Shown here: positions 32,522-40,737 of the stretch, piece after piece
Position numbering within the stretch: position 1 is the stretch's first letter
Layout: each line of letters opens with the position of its first letter
Program-made: the position numbers and the translations under genes
Notes under the pieces: model-generated
Database searches by the model: none
Seen by the model: the letters and a program-made list of their open reading frames with translations, nothing else
Told to the model about the DNA's origin: nothing
From: Eubacteriales bacterium
Lineage (GTDB): Bacteria; Bacillota; Clostridia; Lachnospirales; Lachnospiraceae
Assembly (NCBI GenBank): GCA_030524585.1
Contig: JAUNGJ010000009.1
Span: 1-61,308, forward strand
Direction of reading: 5' to 3'
Length of the DNA stretch: 61,308 bases

Positions 32522-32550
32522 TTCATATATTGAACAAAATTTGCTATAAT
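32522..32550 (+). promoter_or_regulatory. Putative promoter of the rhodanese lipoprotein gene
   Basis: TTCATA (32522-32527), a 17-bp spacer and a perfect TATAAT (32545-32550), about 42 bases before the start codon. Confidence 0.6.
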
Positions 32551-32592: not shown

Positions 32593-33696
32593 ATGAAAAA
32601 GAAAGTATTAAGCGTATTGTTGTGTACTGCAATGGTAATGTCTCTTGCTGTTGGCTGTGGTTCTTCAGCAGATGAGAAGGAGACCGAGACCAAGGAAGAG
32701 ACAGCGGAAGAGGAGACAGCAGAGCCGGTAGAGGCTGAGGCTGTAGATCAGAGAACCGTCTATGTAACGCCGGAATGGGTAAAGAGTGTAATCGACGGTA
32801 ATCAGGAAGGCTATGAGGATTACATTATCTGCGAGGTTTCCTACGCTGATGTAGATTCTAGTCCGGATTATAAGGACGGACATCTTCCGGGTGCGATCCA
32901 TGTAGGAGATATTGAAGTAGAGGATGCTACCGGTTCCGAAGAGGGAGCATATAATCTGCTGGCTCCGGAAGAAGTAGAGAAGAACCTGCTTTCTCACGGC
33001 ATTACCAAAGACACAAAGGTTATCATGTACGGACAGGACCCGGCAGGTGTGGGCCGTGTGGCTTATGCATATATCTGGGCAGGTGTTGAGGATGTTAAGA
33101 TTCTCAACGGTGGTATTGACGCATGGAAGGAAGCTGGATATGACCTTGAGACAGAGGCCAATGAAGGCGAAGCAGCAGAGGACTTCGGAACAACTGTTCC
33201 GGCACATCCGGAATACTGGGTATCCATCGAAGATGCGAAAGACAGATTGGAAAATGATGACAACTTCAAGCTTGTCAGCATCCGCAGCGAGGAAGAGTGG
33301 TTAGGCGAGACCAGCGGATACAATTACATGGACAAGGCTGGTGAGCCGGAAGGCGCCGTATGGGGCAAAGGTGCAAAGACAGCATTTGACGTGGCGGATT
33401 TTGTCAATGAAGATGGAACTGTTAAGGATCTGGAAGGCTTGAAGGAAGTATGGGCTGATTGTGATTTTACACTGGACAATCATCTTTCCTTCTACTGTGG
33501 TACAGGCTGGAGAGCAACCGTCCCATTCCTGGTACTCTATGAGAATGGCTATGATAACATCTCTGTTTATGACGGAGGCTGGTATGAGTGGCTGATGCAT
33601 GATGATTATCCGGTACAGGTAGGTGATCCTGCAAGCGATGACTGTGAGCATACAACCGTAGGAGAGCTTCCGACAGGAAAGGCTGCAGAATACTAA
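32593..33696 (+). CDS. Two-domain rhodanese-like lipoprotein (sulfurtransferase)
   Basis: Predicted lipid-anchored extracytoplasmic protein of 367 residues: signal peptide with lipobox LAVGC, a Glu/Thr-rich linker (about residues 24-50), then two rhodanese domains. The first lacks the catalytic Cys (VIMYGQDPAG at the loop). The second has an active-site loop YCGTGWRA with Cys, so it may transfer sulfur from thiosulfate or a similar donor. It has its own promoter and a hairpin follows, separating it from the operon downstream, although the two may be functionally related. Exported location is unusual compared with cytoplasmic thiosulfate sulfurtransferases. Confidence 0.87.
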   Translation: MKKKVLSVLLCTAMVMSLAVGCGSSADEKETETKEETAEEETAEPVEAEAVDQRTVYVTPEWVKSVIDGNQEGYEDYIICEVSYADVDSSPDYKDGHLPGAIHVGDIEVEDATGSEEGAYNLLAPEEVEKNLLSHGITKDTKVIMYGQDPAGVGRVAYAYIWAGVEDVKILNGGIDAWKEAGYDLETEANEGEAAEDFGTTVPAHPEYWVSIEDAKDRLENDDNFKLVSIRSEEEWLGETSGYNYMDKAGEPEGAVWGKGAKTAFDVADFVNEDGTVKDLEGLKEVWADCDFTLDNHLSFYCGTGWRATVPFLVLYENGYDNISVYDGGWYEWLMHDDYPVQVGDPASDDCEHTTVGELPTGKAAEY

Positions 33697-33719
33697 AATA
33701 TAAGAATGAAGAACTGTGT

Positions 33720-33755
33720 AAACGCTGCTGCCTGAAGGCGGCAGCGTTTATTGCT
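33720..33755 (+). terminator. GC-rich hairpin after the rhodanese gene, probable terminator
   Basis: A 13-bp stem (aaacgctgctgcc and ggcggcagcgttt, one wobble pair) with a TGAA tetraloop spans 33720-33749. The T tract after it is weak (tttattgct counting the last stem bases), so read-through into the next operon is likely. Confidence 0.6.
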
Positions 33756-33766
33756 ATGGAGGAAAG

Positions 33767-34192
33767 ATGAAAAGAATTTTGTTTGTATTACTGGATATAC
33801 TGTCGGCCGCATTCCTGATCGGAGGTTATGTGATACAGTATTTCACAAAGAACAAGCTGGGAATGGTAAGATGGGTGAACTTTCAGGAAAGAAAAACCAG
33901 GGAGGCAGTACCTGTTGATATATTGAAATATGCTGCGGTAATCGTGGTACTGCTGCTTGCAGTTATTATTATCAGAGAATTTCTCAAAAAGAGGCTGAAT
34001 CTTGGCAGATTGGACGGGGTAATGGTGGCAGTCATGGTGATACTTGTTGCTGGCTATCTTGGAGCAACGCTGTTTGTTACAATCGAAGTTACACCTGCTT
34101 ATTTTATGGTTCTGCCTATGATTGGAGCGGCAGCGCTATTGCAGGTGATAAGAAGCGGAATTGCGGTTTGGACGTGCAGAGATGAAAAATAA
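33767..34192 (+). CDS. Four-helix membrane protein of unknown function
   Basis: Protein of 141 residues with about four hydrophobic segments (residues 5-25, 50-68, 80-100 and 108-128) and a positively charged loop after the second (EFLKKRLNLGR). I do not recognise a family. It starts 17 bases after the hairpin behind ATGGAGGAAAG, and its end overlaps the next gene by 11 bases. It is therefore the first gene of the nine-gene operon that contains the ArsS-like enzyme. Confidence 0.7.
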   Translation: MKRILFVLLDILSAAFLIGGYVIQYFTKNKLGMVRWVNFQERKTREAVPVDILKYAAVIVVLLLAVIIIREFLKKRLNLGRLDGVMVAVMVILVAGYLGATLFVTIEVTPAYFMVLPMIGAAALLQVIRSGIAVWTCRDEK

Positions 34193-34871
34193 AAAACTAT
34201 GGATATTCATTGGAATCATTCTGGTGATTCTGATTTTAAATCATATATTCGGATGGTCTTCTTATATCGGAGACATGGATAATCTGAAATTTCTTGAGGA
34301 TATGGTACAGAAGAATCTGGCGCTGGCGGTCTGTATCTATATAGCGCTGACGGTAATCGGGTGTGTGGTACTGGCTCTTCCGGGCATAACCTTTGCCGTT
34401 GCCGCTGGGCTTTTATTTGGACCGGTTCTGGGAACTTTCTGCTGTTCGGCTGCAACAACACTGGGAGCAATGCTGGCGTTTGTTGTGGGAAGATTCTTCC
34501 TCAAGGACAGTATCAGGCCGGTGGCGATGAAGAATAAGTATCTGAAGAAATGGCTGTTTGATGAGTCGGGCAGTAATGAAATCTTTATTCTTATGATTAC
34601 CAGGCTCGTGCCGCTGTTCCCATACAATCTTCAGAACTTTGCCTACGGGGTGACAGACATTAAATTTGCCACATATTCAATCTGTTCGCTGATTTTTATG
34701 CTGCCGGGGACTGCGATGTATACGGTGGGAACGGCCGGGCTGGCGGACAAAGAGAACCGGGTGCTTTATATTGGAATCGCCCTGGCGCTGGCGGCTGTGG
34801 TAATGGGAATCGGCGCGTATCTGAAGAAGCATTATGTGCAGGAAGAGCAGGTGATGGCGGATGAAGAATAG
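34182..34871 (+). CDS. TVP38/TMEM64-family membrane protein (copy 1)
   Basis: DedA-superfamily membrane protein of 229 residues. The family core is visible: ALPGITFAVAAGLLFGPVLG, shown in part, then GRFFLKD and MITRLVPLFPYNLQNFAYG. Members are suspected lipid scramblases or transporters. The ATG at 34182 overlaps the preceding gene. TVP38 proteins are recurrent neighbours of ArsS-type genes in other genomes, as I recall, and a second paralogue lies four genes downstream. Confidence 0.87.
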   Translation: MKNKKLWIFIGIILVILILNHIFGWSSYIGDMDNLKFLEDMVQKNLALAVCIYIALTVIGCVVLALPGITFAVAAGLLFGPVLGTFCCSAATTLGAMLAFVVGRFFLKDSIRPVAMKNKYLKKWLFDESGSNEIFILMITRLVPLFPYNLQNFAYGVTDIKFATYSICSLIFMLPGTAMYTVGTAGLADKENRVLYIGIALALAAVVMGIGAYLKKHYVQEEQVMADEE

Positions 34872-35832
34872 ACATACGGATGTTTCCGCGTGTGTGCACT
34901 GCCATAAATGTCAGGAGCACTGCCTGTTTCTTAAAAAATATCAGATGGATATCGGAGATGAGGATAAGTTAAAGGAGCTTGCCTATCACTGTTTTCTGTG
35001 CGGGAAATGTACGGAAGTCTGTCCAAAGGGGATTGACGGCAGGGAATACATTCTGAATCTGCGGCGGCAGCAGGTGGCAGAGGCTGATGGAAGACTACGG
35101 GAAAAAGGGTATGGAATGCTGCTTTGGGAGAAGCAGAATTACCGTTTCCGCAATTACAGAAATGCCTCTTCCGGGAGTCTGCTGTTTCCGGGATGTAATT
35201 TTCCTTCTTTTTATCCGAAGACCACGAAGAAGCTGGTTCAATTACTTTCGGAAACGGCGGGAATCGGCGTAGCCTATGACTGCTGCGGAAAGCCGGTGGC
35301 AGAGCTTGGTCTGGAAAAGCAGGAGGAACAGATTATCCGGCGCATGGATCAGGAGATGGTTTCGCGCGGCGTGACCGAGGTCATTATGGTGTGTCCGAAC
35401 TGTTATTATTTCCTAAAGCCAAGACTATCGGTTAAGGTGGTCAGCATCTACGAGAAGCTGTCGGAGCTTGGACTTGGAAAAAGGATTCCGGGCGGCGGAC
35501 CGGTCTTTCTCCCCTGTCCTGATAGAGAATCGCGGAAATGGCTGAAGCAGATGGAAGCTTTTATGGAGAGGCCCTGTGAGCCGATAGAGCAGGTGATGTG
35601 CTGTGGCCTGGGGGGATGTGCGGGTGCGAAAGAGCCTGAGCTTGCCAGAGAGCTTGCAGAGAAAATCGGCCGGAAAGAGCCCACCTATGTATATTGTGCT
35701 TCCTGTGGGGGGAATCTTACCAGAAACGGATGCGGAGATGTCCGGCATGTGCTGGCAGAGATTTTGGAGACCGGGGAACAGCCGGATACGGGAAAATCTT
35801 TGCTGAACCGTGCAAAGACGAAATGGCTGTAA
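34861..35832 (+). CDS. CCG-domain Fe-S oxidoreductase (GlcF/HdrB-like)
   Basis: Soluble electron-transfer or redox protein of 323 residues. The N-terminus holds two 4Fe-4S ferredoxin motifs, C-x2-C-x2-C-x3-C starting at Cys12 (CVHCHKCQEHC) and CFLCGKCTEVCP. Two CCG-type domains follow: CCGKPVAE with CPNC, then CCGLGGCAG with CASCGG. The CCG domains of HdrB and GlcF bind non-cubane or cubane clusters and often act on thiols or 2-hydroxyacids. It overlaps the TVP38 gene by 11 bases. In this operon it may supply electrons or reduce a disulfide-like bond in the product. Confidence 0.85.
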   Translation: MKNRHTDVSACVHCHKCQEHCLFLKKYQMDIGDEDKLKELAYHCFLCGKCTEVCPKGIDGREYILNLRRQQVAEADGRLREKGYGMLLWEKQNYRFRNYRNASSGSLLFPGCNFPSFYPKTTKKLVQLLSETAGIGVAYDCCGKPVAELGLEKQEEQIIRRMDQEMVSRGVTEVIMVCPNCYYFLKPRLSVKVVSIYEKLSELGLGKRIPGGGPVFLPCPDRESRKWLKQMEAFMERPCEPIEQVMCCGLGGCAGAKEPELARELAEKIGRKEPTYVYCASCGGNLTRNGCGDVRHVLAEILETGEQPDTGKSLLNRAKTKWL

Positions 35833-35844
35833 GAGGGATACAGA

Positions 35845-37182
35845 ATGCAAAGGAAGAATGCGATTATCATATTTACAAGAATACCGGCTGCCGGGAAGAC
35901 GAAAACACGGCTGATGCCTTATCTGACGCCTGAAGAGTGTAAGAAGCTGCATCTTTGCTTCCTGCGGGATATTGCGAAGCAATGCCGGAAGGCAGCGGCA
36001 GATATCTATGTCTGTTACACCCCGGAGGGAGAGCCGGGGGAATTAAAGGATATTTTTGGCAGGCAGGCGGGATACTTTTCTCAGAAGGGCGAAAACCTTG
36101 GGGCGCGGATGGAGCAGGGGATCCGTCAGGTACTGGAATGGGGGTATCAATCCTGCGTGCTGATCGGTACGGATATTCCGGAGATTCGGGGCAGCGATCT
36201 GAGGCAGGCATTTACCATACTGGAAGATAAAGATGTGGTGTTTGGGCCAACGGCAGACGGCGGTTATTATCTTGTGGGAATGAAAAAGCTTCATTCGGAA
36301 GTGTTTGCCGGACAGAGCTACGGACATGGAAGCGTACTTACAAACACGATGCGGGCGTTTGCAGAGACGGGAATCAGAACTGGCAGTATCCGTATGCTTC
36401 ATGATCTGGACACGAGAGAGGACCTGTGCGGTTACCGGGAACGGATGCGGGAGTTTCCGGCGCTTCAGGAGACGGAAACCGGAAAGTATTTAATGAGAAA
36501 GCTCCGGATATCGATCATCGTTCCCATTTATAATGAAGAAAAGACGATAGAACAATTACTTGCACAGCTAAGGCCGCTGCAGAAGTCCTGTGAGATTCTG
36601 CTGGTGGACGGGGGAAGCACAGATCGGACTTTGGAGTACATTACACCGGAGTTTAAGCTGCTTCATTCTCCGAAGGGCCGGGCGAATCAGATGAATCTGG
36701 GAGCAAAGGAAAGCAGTGGGGACGTGCTGTTCTTCCTGCACTGTGACAGTGAGCTTCCGAAGAGCCCCCTGGCGGAGATTCGGTATGTGATGAAGGATCA
36801 CCGGGCGGGATGCTTTGGCGTTGCCTTTCACTCCCGGCATTTTTTCATGTGGACCTGCCGGGTGATTTCCAATCACCGGATCAAAGACCGCAAAGTGATG
36901 TTTGGGGATCAGGGAATTTTTATCACCAGAGAATTGTTCTTTCAGGCAGGGATGTTTCCTGAGCTTCCGATTATGGAGGATTATCAGTTTTCTCTGACTT
37001 TGAAGGAAATGGGCGTGAAGCTTGGAATGGCGAGGCACCGTATTTATACTTCAGACCGGAGATTTCCGAAGAAGACCATACCGATGCTTCGGCTGATGTG
37101 GAAAATGAACCGGCTCCGGAAGATGTACCGGGACGGTGTGGCGGTTGAACGGATTGCAGAGATGTACAGAGATGTACGGTAA
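35845..37182 (+). CDS. Fused DUF2064 nucleotidyltransferase-like and GT2 glycosyltransferase protein
   Basis: Protein of 445 residues made of two families encoded separately in arsenosugar loci. Residues 1-200 match the TIGR04282/DUF2064 type, with a MobA/CofC-like GT-A fold (FTRIPAAGKTKTRLMPYL, GTDIPEIRG, GPTADGGYYLVG). Residues 212-445 match the TIGR04283 family-2 glycosyltransferase (ISIIVPIYNEEKTIEQLL, LVDGGSTDRT, FLHCDSELP with the DxD-like site, and FGDQGIF). A fusion suggests that product hand-over or stoichiometry matters. Family numbers are from memory. It lies 12 bases after the CCG gene. Substrate unknown; a sugar or nucleotide-activated small molecule is likely. Confidence 0.88.
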   Translation: MQRKNAIIIFTRIPAAGKTKTRLMPYLTPEECKKLHLCFLRDIAKQCRKAAADIYVCYTPEGEPGELKDIFGRQAGYFSQKGENLGARMEQGIRQVLEWGYQSCVLIGTDIPEIRGSDLRQAFTILEDKDVVFGPTADGGYYLVGMKKLHSEVFAGQSYGHGSVLTNTMRAFAETGIRTGSIRMLHDLDTREDLCGYRERMREFPALQETETGKYLMRKLRISIIVPIYNEEKTIEQLLAQLRPLQKSCEILLVDGGSTDRTLEYITPEFKLLHSPKGRANQMNLGAKESSGDVLFFLHCDSELPKSPLAEIRYVMKDHRAGCFGVAFHSRHFFMWTCRVISNHRIKDRKVMFGDQGIFITRELFFQAGMFPELPIMEDYQFSLTLKEMGVKLGMARHRIYTSDRRFPKKTIPMLRLMWKMNRLRKMYRDGVAVERIAEMYRDVR

Positions 37183-37194
37183 GGAGTGTGGCAT

Positions 37195-38238
37195 TTGGAG
37201 AGGATTCAGGGATTATCAGACTATGTTAGAAGGAAGGACTACCGGCAGGCGCTGGGGCTTCCGGCAGAAGTGGCGGAAGAGTACCGTTTGTTTGCCCAGG
37301 GGGAATATAACATCAATTATATTTTTATCCATCCGCTTACCGGAAAGAGGCTGCTGCTTCGCGTAAACTGTGGAAGCCAGATGCATCTGGAGGATCAGAT
37401 CGGGTATGAATTCCGGGCTTTGAAGATGCTGGAGCCTTCCGGCAGAACGCCGGAGGCCGTCTACGTGGATGGCAGTAAGCGATTTTTAGACCATGGCGTG
37501 ATGGTTATGGAATATTTACCCGGAAAGGCGCTGGATTACCATAAGGATATGGGACTGGCGGCGGAGATACTGGCGGACATTCACAGTACGGGCGTGCCGG
37601 AAGGTATGATTCCGGAGGAAACAGACCTTGTGGGAGAACAGACGCTGATCAGCTCGAAGAATCCTTTGGAGGCGATTTTAAAAGAGTGTGAGCAGATGGT
37701 AAAAACCTATATGGAATCCCCGCTGGGCGATGAGGGCACGAAAAGGCAGATCCGCAAAATGCTGGATACGGGATGGGCGAAGATAAAGGATCTTTCCCAG
37801 AAGGAGACATATCGGTGCTGTATCAATACGGAGCTGAATTCTACGAATTTCCTGATCAATGGACCGGGAGAAGCAAATTATCTGATTGACTGGGAGAAGC
37901 CTTTGTATGGCGATCCGGCTCAGGATCTGGGACATTTTCTGGCGCCGACGACTACCTTCTGGAAGACGGATGTGATTCTGGGACAATCGGAGATGGACGC
38001 GTTTCTGGAGGACTATATCCGGGCGGTGGACGGCAGGTTTCCCACGGACGGACTGCGGGAAAGAGTATCGGTGTTTGTGCCGGTTACCTGTCTGCGGGGT
38101 GTGACCTGGTGTGCGATGGCGTGGGTGGAGTACCAGCAGCCGGACAGACTGATTTTTAATGAATCAACCTTCCGAAAGCTGGATGCTTATCTGGACGGAG
38201 CATTTTTGGAGGATATAGATTCACTTCTAATTTCCTGA
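37195..38238 (+). CDS. Phosphotransferase-fold (APH/choline kinase-like) protein with altered catalytic loop
   Basis: Protein of 347 residues with the protein kinase-like fold of aminoglycoside and choline kinases. The N-lobe holds the nucleotide region (GEYNINYIF, LLLRVN), VMEYLPGKAL is the hinge, and the C-lobe has LIDWEKPLYGDPAQDLGHFL. Where family members carry H-G-D-L-x3-N, this protein reads N-T-E-L-N-S-T-N, with Asn211 for His and Glu213 for the catalytic Asp. The metal-binding Asp232 (DWE) is kept. It may have low activity or different chemistry. The start is taken as TTG 37195, eight bases after AAGGAG; GTG 37186 overlaps that site. Follows the GT fusion by 12 bases. Confidence 0.78.
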   Translation: MERIQGLSDYVRRKDYRQALGLPAEVAEEYRLFAQGEYNINYIFIHPLTGKRLLLRVNCGSQMHLEDQIGYEFRALKMLEPSGRTPEAVYVDGSKRFLDHGVMVMEYLPGKALDYHKDMGLAAEILADIHSTGVPEGMIPEETDLVGEQTLISSKNPLEAILKECEQMVKTYMESPLGDEGTKRQIRKMLDTGWAKIKDLSQKETYRCCINTELNSTNFLINGPGEANYLIDWEKPLYGDPAQDLGHFLAPTTTFWKTDVILGQSEMDAFLEDYIRAVDGRFPTDGLRERVSVFVPVTCLRGVTWCAMAWVEYQQPDRLIFNESTFRKLDAYLDGAFLEDIDSLLIS

Positions 38239-38277
38239 TGAAGTGGAATAGTTATAGATATTACAAGGGAGACAGAT

Positions 38278-38985
38278 ATGGAAAAGAAAAAGATCAACTG
38301 GACTGGAAAGGCTGTCATAGCGGTATTATTTGCAGCGGCGGTTCTGCTTTATCTGCTTGTGCCGGGCGTACACGATCTGGCACAGAAAATTGTCAAAATG
38401 TTTGCCAGTGGGGATTTTACGGAAGTGAGGATGTTCATGGAATCCTACGGGGCATATGCGGCGGTAGTATCCTTTCTGCTGATGATACTGCAGTCCATTG
38501 CAGCGCCGCTTCCGGCTTTTCTCATCACCTTTGCCAATGCGAATTTGTTTGGATGGGTGAAAGGGGCAGTTTTGTCCTGGAGCAGCGCGATGGCAGGTGC
38601 GGCCGTCTGCTTCTACATAGCAAGGATTCTGGGGCGTGACGTGGCGGAACGTCTGACCAGCAGGAGCGGACTTCAGCAGATCGATGTGTTTTTTGAACGG
38701 CACGGGCGGCTCAGTATTCTGATTGCAAGGCTTTTGCCTTTTATTTCATTTGATATTGTAAGCTATGCGGCTGGCCTGACCTCCATGTCCTTTGGCAGTT
38801 TCTTTATTGCCACGGGAATCGGACAGCTTCCGGCGACGATTATTTATTCGTACGTGGGCGGTATGCTGACCGGCGGGGCAAAGCTGCTTGTGACAGGGCT
38901 TCTGATCCTGTTTGCGTTATCAGGGCTGATCGTCCTGATACGGCAGGTTTATGTAGAAAGACAAAAAAAGAAGGAGGAAAAGTAA
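38278..38985 (+). CDS. TVP38/TMEM64-family membrane protein (copy 2)
   Basis: Second DedA-superfamily membrane protein of the operon, 235 residues. Signature segments are LPAFLITFANANLFGWVKG, then GRDVAERL and IARLLPFISFDIVSYAAGL. An N-terminal transmembrane segment and a Lys-rich C-terminal tail (ERQKKKEEK) indicate a cytoplasmic C-terminus. It is only distantly similar to copy 1, so the two are old paralogues rather than a recent duplication. GGGAGACAG precedes the ATG; the next gene starts right after its stop. Confidence 0.87.
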   Translation: MEKKKINWTGKAVIAVLFAAAVLLYLLVPGVHDLAQKIVKMFASGDFTEVRMFMESYGAYAAVVSFLLMILQSIAAPLPAFLITFANANLFGWVKGAVLSWSSAMAGAAVCFYIARILGRDVAERLTSRSGLQQIDVFFERHGRLSILIARLLPFISFDIVSYAAGLTSMSFGSFFIATGIGQLPATIIYSYVGGMLTGGAKLLVTGLLILFALSGLIVLIRQVYVERQKKKEEK

Positions 38986-39318
38986 ATGGAAACCTATTAT
39001 AATCCGGAGGATCTGGCGAAATTTGGCACGATGGGCGAGGAGGCGCCGGAGCTGTGGGACAAATTCATGCAGTATTATGGAGCGGTCTTTGCGGAAGGGG
39101 CGCTGACGGCAAGGGAGAAATCTCTGATTGCACTGGCAGTTGCCCATGCGGTTCAGTGTCCTTACTGCATCGATTCCTACACCCAGGATTGCTTATCCAA
39201 GGGCGTGGACGAGGAACAGATGACGGAGGCGGTTCATGTGGCGGCGGCGATCCGTGGCGGAGCGACGTTGGTCCACGGTGTGCAGATGAAAAATATGGTA
39301 AAGAAACTGGAGTTCTAA
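38986..39318 (+). CDS. Carboxymuconolactone decarboxylase/AhpD-like protein of the ArsS-associated type
   Basis: Small helical protein of 110 residues with the AhpD redox motif CPYC (AHAVQCPYCIDSYTQDC). This type, the ArsS-associated peroxidase-like family (TIGR04169 as I recall), often has selenocysteine at the first position in other bacteria; here the codon is an ordinary TGT Cys. A third Cys follows. It starts one base after the TVP38 stop behind AAGGAGG and lies directly before the radical SAM gene. A thiol peroxidase or disulfide reductase role is inferred. Confidence 0.87.
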   Translation: METYYNPEDLAKFGTMGEEAPELWDKFMQYYGAVFAEGALTAREKSLIALAVAHAVQCPYCIDSYTQDCLSKGVDEEQMTEAVHVAAAIRGGATLVHGVQMKNMVKKLEF

Positions 39319-39319
39319 G

Positions 39320-40303
39320 ATGGAAATAAGAGAGAAATTTCGGGAATTAACAGAGATACCGGAGTTTGAAAGCCGGATTGAGGATGAACAGATCAAAATG
39401 ACCGGAGAGCATATGGAAGTGCTGCAGGTCAATGTGGGACGTCTTTGTAATCTTGCCTGTAAGCACTGCCATGTAGAAGCAGGGCCGAAGCGGACCGAGA
39501 TTATGAGCAGAGAGGTGATGGAGGCCTGCCTTGAGGCATATGGGATGCAGGGCTTCCGGACGATTGATATTACCGGGGGAGCGCCGGAGATGAATCCGAA
39601 TTTCCGCTGGTTTGTAGAGGAAGCGGTAAAAATCTGTCCTCATGTAATTGTGCGGACGAACCTGGTGATCATGCTGGAAGAAGGGTATGAGGATTTACCG
39701 GAGTTCTACGCCGCGAATAAGGTAGAGCTTGTCTGTTCTCTTCCGCACTACAAGGCTAAGAATGCTGACCGCCAGAGAGGGGAAGGGGTATTTGAGGGCT
39801 CCATTGAGGTATTGAAGAAGCTGAATGCAATTGGCTATGGAAGGAAACCGGAGCTGGTGCTGAATATGGTGTATAATCCGGGCGGAGCCTTCTTCCCGCC
39901 GGCACAGGGCGCCATTGAACGGGAATATAAAGACCGGCTGGGAAGGGAGTATGGCATTGTGTTTAACAATCTGTTTACGATCACGAATAATCCCATCGGA
40001 CGATTTGGAGGATTCCTGGTAAGAAGCGGGAATCTGGCAGGATATATGCAGAAGCTGTACGGCGCATTCAACGGAAAAACTCTTCCGAATATGATGTGCA
40101 GAAGCCAGGTTTCCGTAGGATGGGACGGCTCACTTTATGACTGTGATTTTAATCAGGCGCTAGGTATGGAGATTTCTACGGGAGAGACGATCATGACTCT
40201 GGCGAAGCAGCCATACCGGCCAAGAAGAATCTGCTTTGACAAGCACTGTTACGCCTGCACGGCGGGTCAGGGCTCAAGCTGTGGCGGAAGTACGGAGGGA
40301 TAA
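39320..40303 (+). CDS. ArsS-like radical SAM/Cys-rich enzyme
   Basis: Radical SAM enzyme of 327 residues of the arsenosugar ArsS group (DUF3641 C-terminus). The 4Fe-4S motif is C-x3-C-x2-C in GRLCNLACKHCHVEAGP, followed by TGGAPEMN (the GGE-like SAM motif). The C-terminus has a further Cys set (MMCRSQ, YDCDFNQ, CFDKHCYACTAGQGSSCGG). ArsS is known to join a 5'-deoxyadenosyl group to dimethylarsinous acid. Homologues also occur without arsenic genes, and some carry selenocysteine near the C-terminus; this one uses Cys only. It starts one base after the CMD-like gene. No ArsM is present here, so the substrate is open. Confidence 0.9.
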   Translation: MEIREKFRELTEIPEFESRIEDEQIKMTGEHMEVLQVNVGRLCNLACKHCHVEAGPKRTEIMSREVMEACLEAYGMQGFRTIDITGGAPEMNPNFRWFVEEAVKICPHVIVRTNLVIMLEEGYEDLPEFYAANKVELVCSLPHYKAKNADRQRGEGVFEGSIEVLKKLNAIGYGRKPELVLNMVYNPGGAFFPPAQGAIEREYKDRLGREYGIVFNNLFTITNNPIGRFGGFLVRSGNLAGYMQKLYGAFNGKTLPNMMCRSQVSVGWDGSLYDCDFNQALGMEISTGETIMTLAKQPYRPRRICFDKHCYACTAGQGSSCGGSTEG

Positions 40304-40308
40304 GAAGG

Positions 40309-40737
40309 ATGGAAAAAGAAATAATTGCGAAACAGTTTATGAAGGGCTTTGACTGTTCTCAGGTTGTACTGGAGCGTTATGCAGAGAAGCTTGGGATCAC
40401 ACCGGAGATGGCAAATCGGATCGGAGCCGGCTTTGGCGGCGGCATGGGCAAAGGCGAGACCTGCGGAGCTGTAACCGGGGCGATGATTGCTCTTGGTATG
40501 AAGTATGGCCACTGTCAGGAAGAGCATATGGAGCAGAAGGATGTGATGAATGTAAAAAGGGATGAATTTCTGGAAGCGTTTCTGAAAGAATATCCGGCCT
40601 GTTCCTGTAAAGGTCTTCTGAAGTATGATATTTCCAAACCGGAAGAGATGCAGAAGATTCTGGATGAAGGATTATTGTTTGATTTCTGTCCTCAGGTTGT
40701 GGCAGACGTGATGAAGATTCTGGATGATATGATCTAG
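40309..40737 (+). CDS. C_GCAxxG_C_C family redox protein
   Basis: Protein of 142 residues with the signature cysteines of this family: FDCSQVVL, GETCGAVTGA, ACSCKGLL and FCPQVV. It is thought to bind a metal or cluster and accompanies redox enzymes; function unknown. It begins 5 bases after the ArsS-like gene (AAGAAGGATGG) and closes the operon. A strong terminator follows. Its conserved Cys residues make a redox or thiol-carrier role in the pathway plausible. Confidence 0.87.
   Translation: MEKEIIAKQFMKGFDCSQVVLERYAEKLGITPEMANRIGAGFGGGMGKGETCGAVTGAMIALGMKYGHCQEEHMEQKDVMNVKRDEFLEAFLKEYPACSCKGLLKYDISKPEEMQKILDEGLLFDFCPQVVADVMKILDDMI

Follow-up and report, generated by a model that had tools for sequence, protein, structure and literature searches.

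A modular ArsS-type gene set in a Lachnospiraceae genome in which no ArsM was found

The window analyzed here is the 61,308-nucleotide contig JAUNGJ010000009.1 of a Lachnospiraceae bacterium (C62, one of the 115 contigs of a 2.82-Mb genome, 91.8% complete), in which nine open reading frames (ORFs) at 33767-40737 had been read from sequence alone as an ArsS-type operon devoid of the arsenite methyltransferase ArsM. We find that this gene set, extended here by an upstream tenth member, is a real, conserved and modular variant of the arsenosugar kind but not a proven new product class. The genes for a CMD-like protein and for the radical S-adenosylmethionine (SAM) enzyme ArsS form, by comparative gene content, a removable pair that adjoins a core consisting of VTT membrane proteins, a CCG-type Fe-S protein, DUF2064 and GT2 domains and an APH-fold kinase, and a rhodanese lipoprotein, a small membrane protein (memb) and a C_GCAxxG_C_C redox protein are variable and lie outside that core. 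All nine ORFs of the sequence-only reading are present, and the families it named were recovered with Pfam and NCBIfam.

The modular organization emerges with the kinase as anchor, which occurs in 8 of the 392 order-level and 18 of the 299 family-level genomes sampled and also in G784 and G785, making 25 genomes altogether. ArsS scores over its cut-off in 11 of the 23 kinase genomes tested, giving, with the window genome and G122, 13 ArsS-bearing and 12 ArsS-free genomes. The ArsS-free genomes retain, no further than 8 kb from the kinase, CCG (11), DUF2064 (11), GT2 (10) and VTT (10), as well as rhodanese (9), nucleoside hydrolase (7), C_GCAxxG_C_C (4) and memb (3) genes; the counts for the other 12 ArsS-bearing kinase loci, window excluded, are 9 for DUF2064, 9 for GT2, 8 for VTT, 7 for CCG and 2 for the hydrolase. 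Locus L161 from the ArsS-free genome G343 (99% complete) reads rhodanese-memb-VTT1-CCG-DUF2064/GT2-APH-VTT2-C_GCAxxG_C_C, which is the order of the window with CMD-ArsS taken out; of the eight ORFs, seven (the rhodanese, both VTT proteins, CCG, DUF2064-GT2, APH and C_GCAxxG_C_C) were individually confirmed by Pfam or NCBIfam, and memb was identified by our own profile only, at 32% identity. Conversely, G939, G1027, G1040 and G844 carry CMD-ArsS away from the kinase locus. The earlier description of the nine genes as an ArsS-type operon thus stands as far as a conserved set is concerned, but we reject its treatment as one ArsS unit, because CMD-ArsS is missing from otherwise similar loci of ArsS-free genomes.

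The absence of ArsM from the window, already remarked upon in the sequence-only reading, extends to the assembled genome, where the best match to the ArsM model NF008823 reaches 31.9 bits against a cut-off of 263 and a wider profile of 13 ordinary and arsenosugar-type ArsM sequences yields nothing at E<=1e-15. No ArsM was detected at the same threshold in the closed genus-mate G1079 (one contig, 99% complete), which has the full complement of ten gene families within a single locus, arranged in an order other than that of the window. Overall, ArsM is missing from 10 of 13 ArsS-bearing Lachnospiraceae genomes (the window genome, G382, G1079, G844, G886, G939, G994, G1027, G1040, G1042, G1075, G784 and G785, with G1027 at 82% and G1042 at 77% completeness), and the remaining three carry it either beside ArsS (G844) or elsewhere in the genome (G939, G785). 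Synteny is conserved, and a co-occurrence of ArsM with the set in all relatives, which would have counted against the sequence-only reading, is not seen. An artefact of metagenome-assembled genomes (MAGs) is an unlikely explanation, as no ArsM was found in G1079 or in G994, likewise a single contig at 99% completeness, nor in the isolate Muricomes intestini DSM 29489 (G382, 98% complete), whose best NF008823 match is 57 bits and which has none with the wider profile.

ArsS itself is patchily distributed, occurring in 3 of the 392 order-level and 13 of the 398 phylum-level genomes sampled, and 4 of the 15 ArsS-matching genomes in these two samples (G764 a fragment) have an ArsM match of at least 150 bits. 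Among named ArsS loci, taken as the best 80 of at least 586 confirmed candidates and including many MAGs, 60 are ArsM-positive by neighborhood or genome search and 20 are not. This positive class takes in NF008823 matches of about 113-135 bits, under the cut-off of that model, one of these proteins reaching 564 with the model for arsenosugar ArsM; G773 (best 101 bits with NF008823, 82.5 with the wider profile) was counted as ArsM-less. Among the matches listed by full-text searches of open-licence papers on ArsS, ArsM, DUF2064 and the arsenosugar families, none describes an operon that lacks ArsM or in which ArsS is optional.

In a tree of 104 ArsS sequences ("quick" search, with support from the Shimodaira-Hasegawa-like approximate likelihood ratio test, SH-aLRT), the window protein falls in a supported set of 20 (SH-aLRT 99) from Lachnospiraceae, Synergistota and a few other Bacillota, from which a long-branched ArsM-ArsS fusion row was left out to leave 19. 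The clade was fixed from the tree ahead of the counts, and the Fisher tests used here ignore relatedness. Among the 19 clade loci, 12 have a CCG gene no more than 8 kb from ArsS, versus 0 of 84 others, a contrast which may be favored by our own profiles, seeded by window or relative proteins and therefore prone to under-count partners far from the window. Within the same distance, VTT is found in 14 of 19 versus 6 of 84, C_GCAxxG_C_C in 10 of 19 versus 7 of 84, and ArsM in 1 of 19 versus 30 of 84, the last rising to 4 of 19 versus 63 of 84 when the whole genome is considered. The clade, found across gut and other anaerobes, is thus marked by CCG/VTT neighbors and is usually ArsM-less. Nine positions separate it from 70 main-group ArsS sequences, and the radical SAM and C-terminal cysteines are kept: C43, C47, C50, C310, C313 and C321, of the CxxxCxxC and CxxCTAGxGSSC motifs, are invariant in 14 sequences. 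A single clade for all ArsM-less ArsS is ruled out by the mixed ArsM labels, which require 23 changes on the tree and indicate that ArsM came and went many times.

Several further ArsS variants were observed. In L192 (G994) and L075 (G785), an in-frame TGA stands at the last cysteine of the CxxCTAGxGSSC motif, and since it replaces a motif cysteine both proteins are candidate, and probable, selenoproteins. L059 (8011-10038) encodes a 676-residue ArsM-ArsS fusion in a genome with three ArsS copies. LPG_synthase_TM membrane proteins adjoin ArsM-less ArsS outside the window clade in L064 (10909-11847) and L065 (6901-7878), hinting at lipid products.

All nine ORFs of the window locus lie on the + strand, with gaps or overlaps between -32 and +39 bases. 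Memb (33767-34192), which matches no Pfam or NCBIfam family above cut-off, has homologs in Lachnospiraceae loci such as L074, L161, L162 and L205. It is followed by the first VTT (TVP38) protein (34161-34871; Pfam VTT_dom 75 bits), for which the likely start is the in-frame ATG at 34182; the 32-base overlap with memb arises only with a TTG start and is reduced by the ATG. The Fe-S protein (34861-35832; Pfam Fer4, and CCG at 35.7 bits) has an N-terminal 4Fe-4S part and two HdrB/HdrD-like CCG-type cysteine sets, CX28CCX35CxxC and CX27CCX30CxxC; Pfam scores only one CCG stretch, and all ten cysteines are invariant in 11 relatives. In L164 (12998-14779) and L166 (3952-5730), a GltD-like flavoprotein adjoins CCG, the two together resembling two halves of NF045663, and is a possible electron path to CCG.

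Downstream, a fused protein (35845-37182; Pfam, NCBIfam) joins a DUF2064 nucleotidyltransferase-like domain (TIGR04282, 203 bits; cut-off 134) to a GT2 domain (TIGR04283, 239 bits; cut-off 182), the nearest solved chains to the latter being dolichol-phosphate mannose synthase and ArnC, weak matches at 22-31 bits to enzymes that use polyprenyl phosphates. The APH-fold kinase-like protein (37186-38238; Pfam APH 49.1 bits, cut-off 23.2) carries a catalytic loop, INTELNS, in place of H-x-D, invariant in 16 aligned homologs from the 25 kinase loci; as NTE stands for the usual H-x-D, though the metal ligands N221 and D235 are kept, its activity is uncertain. The second VTT protein (TVP38/DedA-like; 38278-38985, VTT_dom 96 bits) precedes the removable pair, composed of the CMD/AhpD-like protein with CPYC from an arsenosugar-associated peroxidase-like family (38986-39318; TIGR04169 207 bits, cut-off 120) and ArsS of the CCG/VTT clade (39320-40303; TIGR04167 442 bits, cut-off 300). 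In four relatives the CMD protein shows 85-93% identity, compared with 60-69% for ArsS. The C_GCAxxG_C_C redox protein (40309-40737; Pfam 96 bits, NCBIfam 58.6 with cut-off 47.4) closes the set and occurs elsewhere both beside ArsS and in ArsS-free loci.

The tenth gene, which by synteny belongs to the set, encodes a secreted rhodanese-like lipoprotein (32593-33696, + strand) and ends 70 bases from the first of the nine; a rhodanese ORF lies directly 5' of memb/VTT1 genes in L074, L161, L162, L196, L201, L205 and L206. The protein features a signal peptide, a lipobox-like LAVGC and two Pfam Rhodanese stretches, the second of which holds the one intact active loop, CGTGWR, at residue 302. A strong hairpin (33718-33751, + strand; fold -25.7 kcal/mol, weak T tail) separates it from memb and resembles a terminator or attenuator, so that rhodanese expression may be partly separate from that of the nine genes; the terminator scan gave 8 sites versus 6.4 in shuffles, and the promoter-like site at 32522, 5' of the rhodanese gene, is of a kind found near background (19 versus 12.5).

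These observations lead us to propose, with somewhat less than even confidence, a two-part operon in which CMD-ArsS makes a metalloid nucleoside and the core turns its sugar into a conjugate. The cassette would produce 5'-deoxy-5'-X-adenosine, where X would be a thiol-held As(III) species, most likely arsenite itself or scavenged methylarsenite given a genome without ArsM. Sister loci would strip off adenine with a nucleoside hydrolase, the window genome with a housekeeping enzyme; the APH-fold kinase would then yield X-ribose-1-phosphate (a phosphorylase doing so in Bacteroidota loci), DUF2064 would form NDP-X-ribose, and a membrane carrier or lipid would receive X-ribose from the fused GT2 domain, with the VTT proteins flipping or moving the resulting lipid. 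CCG, CMD, C_GCAxxG_C_C and rhodanese may hold the metalloid and thiols reduced or thiolated, and ArsS-free relatives may use the same core on an imported nucleoside. In L201 (6092-8027), two further radical SAM genes lie 5' of an ArsS-free core and are a possible alternative source of its substrate.

Base-removing enzymes recur around these loci. An IU_nuc_hydro nucleoside hydrolase (136 bits in Pfam for that of L163) is present in seven ArsS-free loci, in each of which the fetched stretch also holds at least one ABC-importer gene (a PRK11622-type solute-binding protein, permeases), and in two ArsS-bearing loci (G939, G122), while 19 Bacteroidota ArsS loci have a purine nucleoside phosphorylase and neither hydrolase nor kinase. 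By analogy to the salvage of methylthioadenosine (MTA) and 5'-deoxyadenosine, this alternation suggests X-ribose-1-phosphate as a hub. The proposed steps also appear to be tied together by gene fusions: hydrolase-DUF2064 in G855 (Pfam-confirmed), VTT-DUF2064 in L075, DUF2064-CCG in L203 and VTT-DUF2064-CCG in L200. The most complete locus, a single 6.9-kb contig of G122, reads DUF2064-APH-C_GCAxxG_C_C-CMD-ArsS-ArsM-GT2-hydrolase, and its union of ArsM, ArsS, hydrolase, kinase, DUF2064 and GT2 favors arsenic, which is probably borne by the unusual sugar that the window operon would make.

Several observations weigh against this two-part scheme. No core was found beside the kinase in G785, G844, G1028 and G1075 (a 4.2-kb contig), and where it is present in ArsS-free genomes it could serve a wholly different pathway. 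The canonical catalytic aspartate is absent from the kinase, which matches no methylthioribose kinase model in NCBIfam at E<=0.01; we thus do not place it in that family, its APH fold being recognized by Pfam. The Bacteroidota phosphorylase is best assigned in NCBIfam to the inosine/guanosine type. Profiles seeded by the L163 hydrolase and the L144 phosphorylase found neither enzyme in the 61-kb window, the rest of the genome not having been searched, and depurination is consequently assigned to an unseen gene. Finally, the hydrolase is present in 2 of 13 ArsS-bearing versus 7 of 12 ArsS-free kinase genomes, a weak exclusivity (Fisher p 0.04) for which the kinase tree supports only two independent pairs; a strict substitution of ArsS by the hydrolase is not supported.

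The operon could instead belong to the ordinary arsenosugar pathway, fed by methylarsenite that these gut and sediment anaerobes take up from neighbors and that ArsS adenosylates as in cyanobacteria, with only the loss of ArsM being new. We regard this as rather unlikely. In its favor, the ArsS cysteine ligands are kept, ArsM occurs with members of the same clade in G939, G785 and G844 (ArsM-CMD-ArsS-C_GCAxxG_C_C), the same kinase and redox protein sit beside ArsM in G122, and Bacteroidota isolate records L114 and L133 have ArsM-less ArsS with ArsM in close kin. However, ArsM is missing in 15 of 19 clade rows versus 21 of 84 elsewhere, the nine clade-specific positions set these enzymes apart, no methylarsenical importer was identified, and G733 carries a canonical ArsS set with ArsM plus a separate CCG/VTT-type ArsS, suggesting two roles. 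The earlier suggestion that activation and transfer parts serve a distinct product is retained only in its first half: the genes fit a sugar-activation and transfer pathway but do not establish a product other than arsenosugars, given the close kin of the kinase and of C_GCAxxG_C_C in a locus with ArsM in G122 and the three Lachnospiraceae members of the same ArsS clade that do have ArsM.

ArsS of this clade might also adenosylate sulfur or selenium instead of arsenic, in a persulfide, sulfite, selenide or the like, with the core building a thio- or selenosugar glycoconjugate; in our estimation this is quite unlikely. Rhodaneses occur close to ArsS at 9 of the 19 clade loci versus 6 of 84 others and include secreted multi-rhodanese proteins of 942 and 1638 residues, and both the rhodanese and the CCG protein show sub-cut-off resemblance to families named for a selenium context. 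Yet 14 ArsS loci outside the clade, some of them with ArsM, have a rhodanese of another family, so that rhodanese does not single out sulfur and was rejected as proof of sulfur chemistry; ArsM adjoins an ArsS of this very clade in G844, and the TIGR04167 and TIGR04169 scores are far above cut-off. The large proteins encoded beside ArsS in L073 (12270-17186) and L197 (3085-5910) are secreted and combine Big_2 repeats (LRR_5 in L073) with four to five rhodanese domains. Least probable is an independent envelope-glycan or redox core into which CMD-ArsS merely jumped as a neighbor, as might be read from its separate location in four genomes, from extra GT2 genes in L073 and L197 and from seven unclustered changes of ArsS presence on the kinase tree (115 of 500 shuffles as low), since DUF2064 (48 of 84) and GT2 (28 of 84) accompany ArsS far beyond the clade and a single run of genes in G122 holds ArsM and ArsS along with the hydrolase, kinase, DUF2064 and GT2.

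The two-part scheme proposes a missing middle of arsenosugar biosynthesis, namely base removal, 1-phosphorylation, nucleotidylation and transfer, drawn from modularity and fusions. The ArsM-poor clade, whose carriers include the isolate Muricomes intestini DSM 29489, raises the question of what ArsS adenosylates. A bolder and, we think, unlikely extension would be a second ArsS branch without methylation, adenosylating inorganic arsenite (or a sulfur or selenium acceptor) and feeding a general module that activates a "5-modified ribose" and transfers it to lipid, for which ArsS-free bacteria import the modified nucleoside made by others; if true, the module would serve a metalloid-sugar economy shared across anaerobic communities. 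In one genome without a detected ArsS or ArsM, families carrying the name "arsenosugar glycosyltransferase" still exceed their cut-offs, and such an annotation is unsafe there.

Arsenosugar biosynthesis through ArsM and ArsS has been shown in Synechocystis sp. PCC 6803 and is covered by the NCBIfam models NF038099, TIGR04167, TIGR04169, TIGR04282 and TIGR04283. Adenosylation of arsenic by ArsS is established for the cyanobacterial pathway (PMC12159101, PMC8552651). The window ArsS, CMD-like, DUF2064 and GT2 proteins are all over NCBIfam cut-off for these families, whereas the window genome lacks a detectable ArsM, adds the VTT pair, CCG, APH kinase, C_GCAxxG_C_C and rhodanese, and has ArsS-free relatives that retain most of the operon. 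In MTA and 5'-deoxyadenosine salvage (PMC8102628, PMC2194712), a nucleosidase (MtnN for MTA) with an APH-like methylthioribose kinase, or one phosphorylase (MtnP), leads to the ribose-1-phosphate, mirroring the hydrolase and APH-fold kinase of some loci and the phosphorylase of others; the salvage route continues with an isomerase and a dehydratase rather than nucleotidyl and glycosyl transfer, and the window kinase is of a distinct family with an NTE loop. The window CCG protein shares its two cysteine sets with HdrB/HdrD-type proteins but scores 99 bits against the cut-off of 530 for the NF045663 dicluster proteins. The VTT domain is common to the window proteins and to lipid flippases such as DedA/UptA, which act on undecaprenyl-phosphate (PMC10127716), although the NCBIfam DedA and UptA models score below cut-off. 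Lastly, in the arsinothricin system arsQML, the radical SAM enzyme ArsL forms a C-As bond and is predicted to use inorganic, unmethylated As(III) as its substrate, ahead of methylation (PMC8552651); that system differs in its 3-amino-3-carboxypropyl transfer, its radical SAM family and the presence of ArsM, but it offers a precedent for C-As chemistry that proceeds ahead of ArsM or in its absence.

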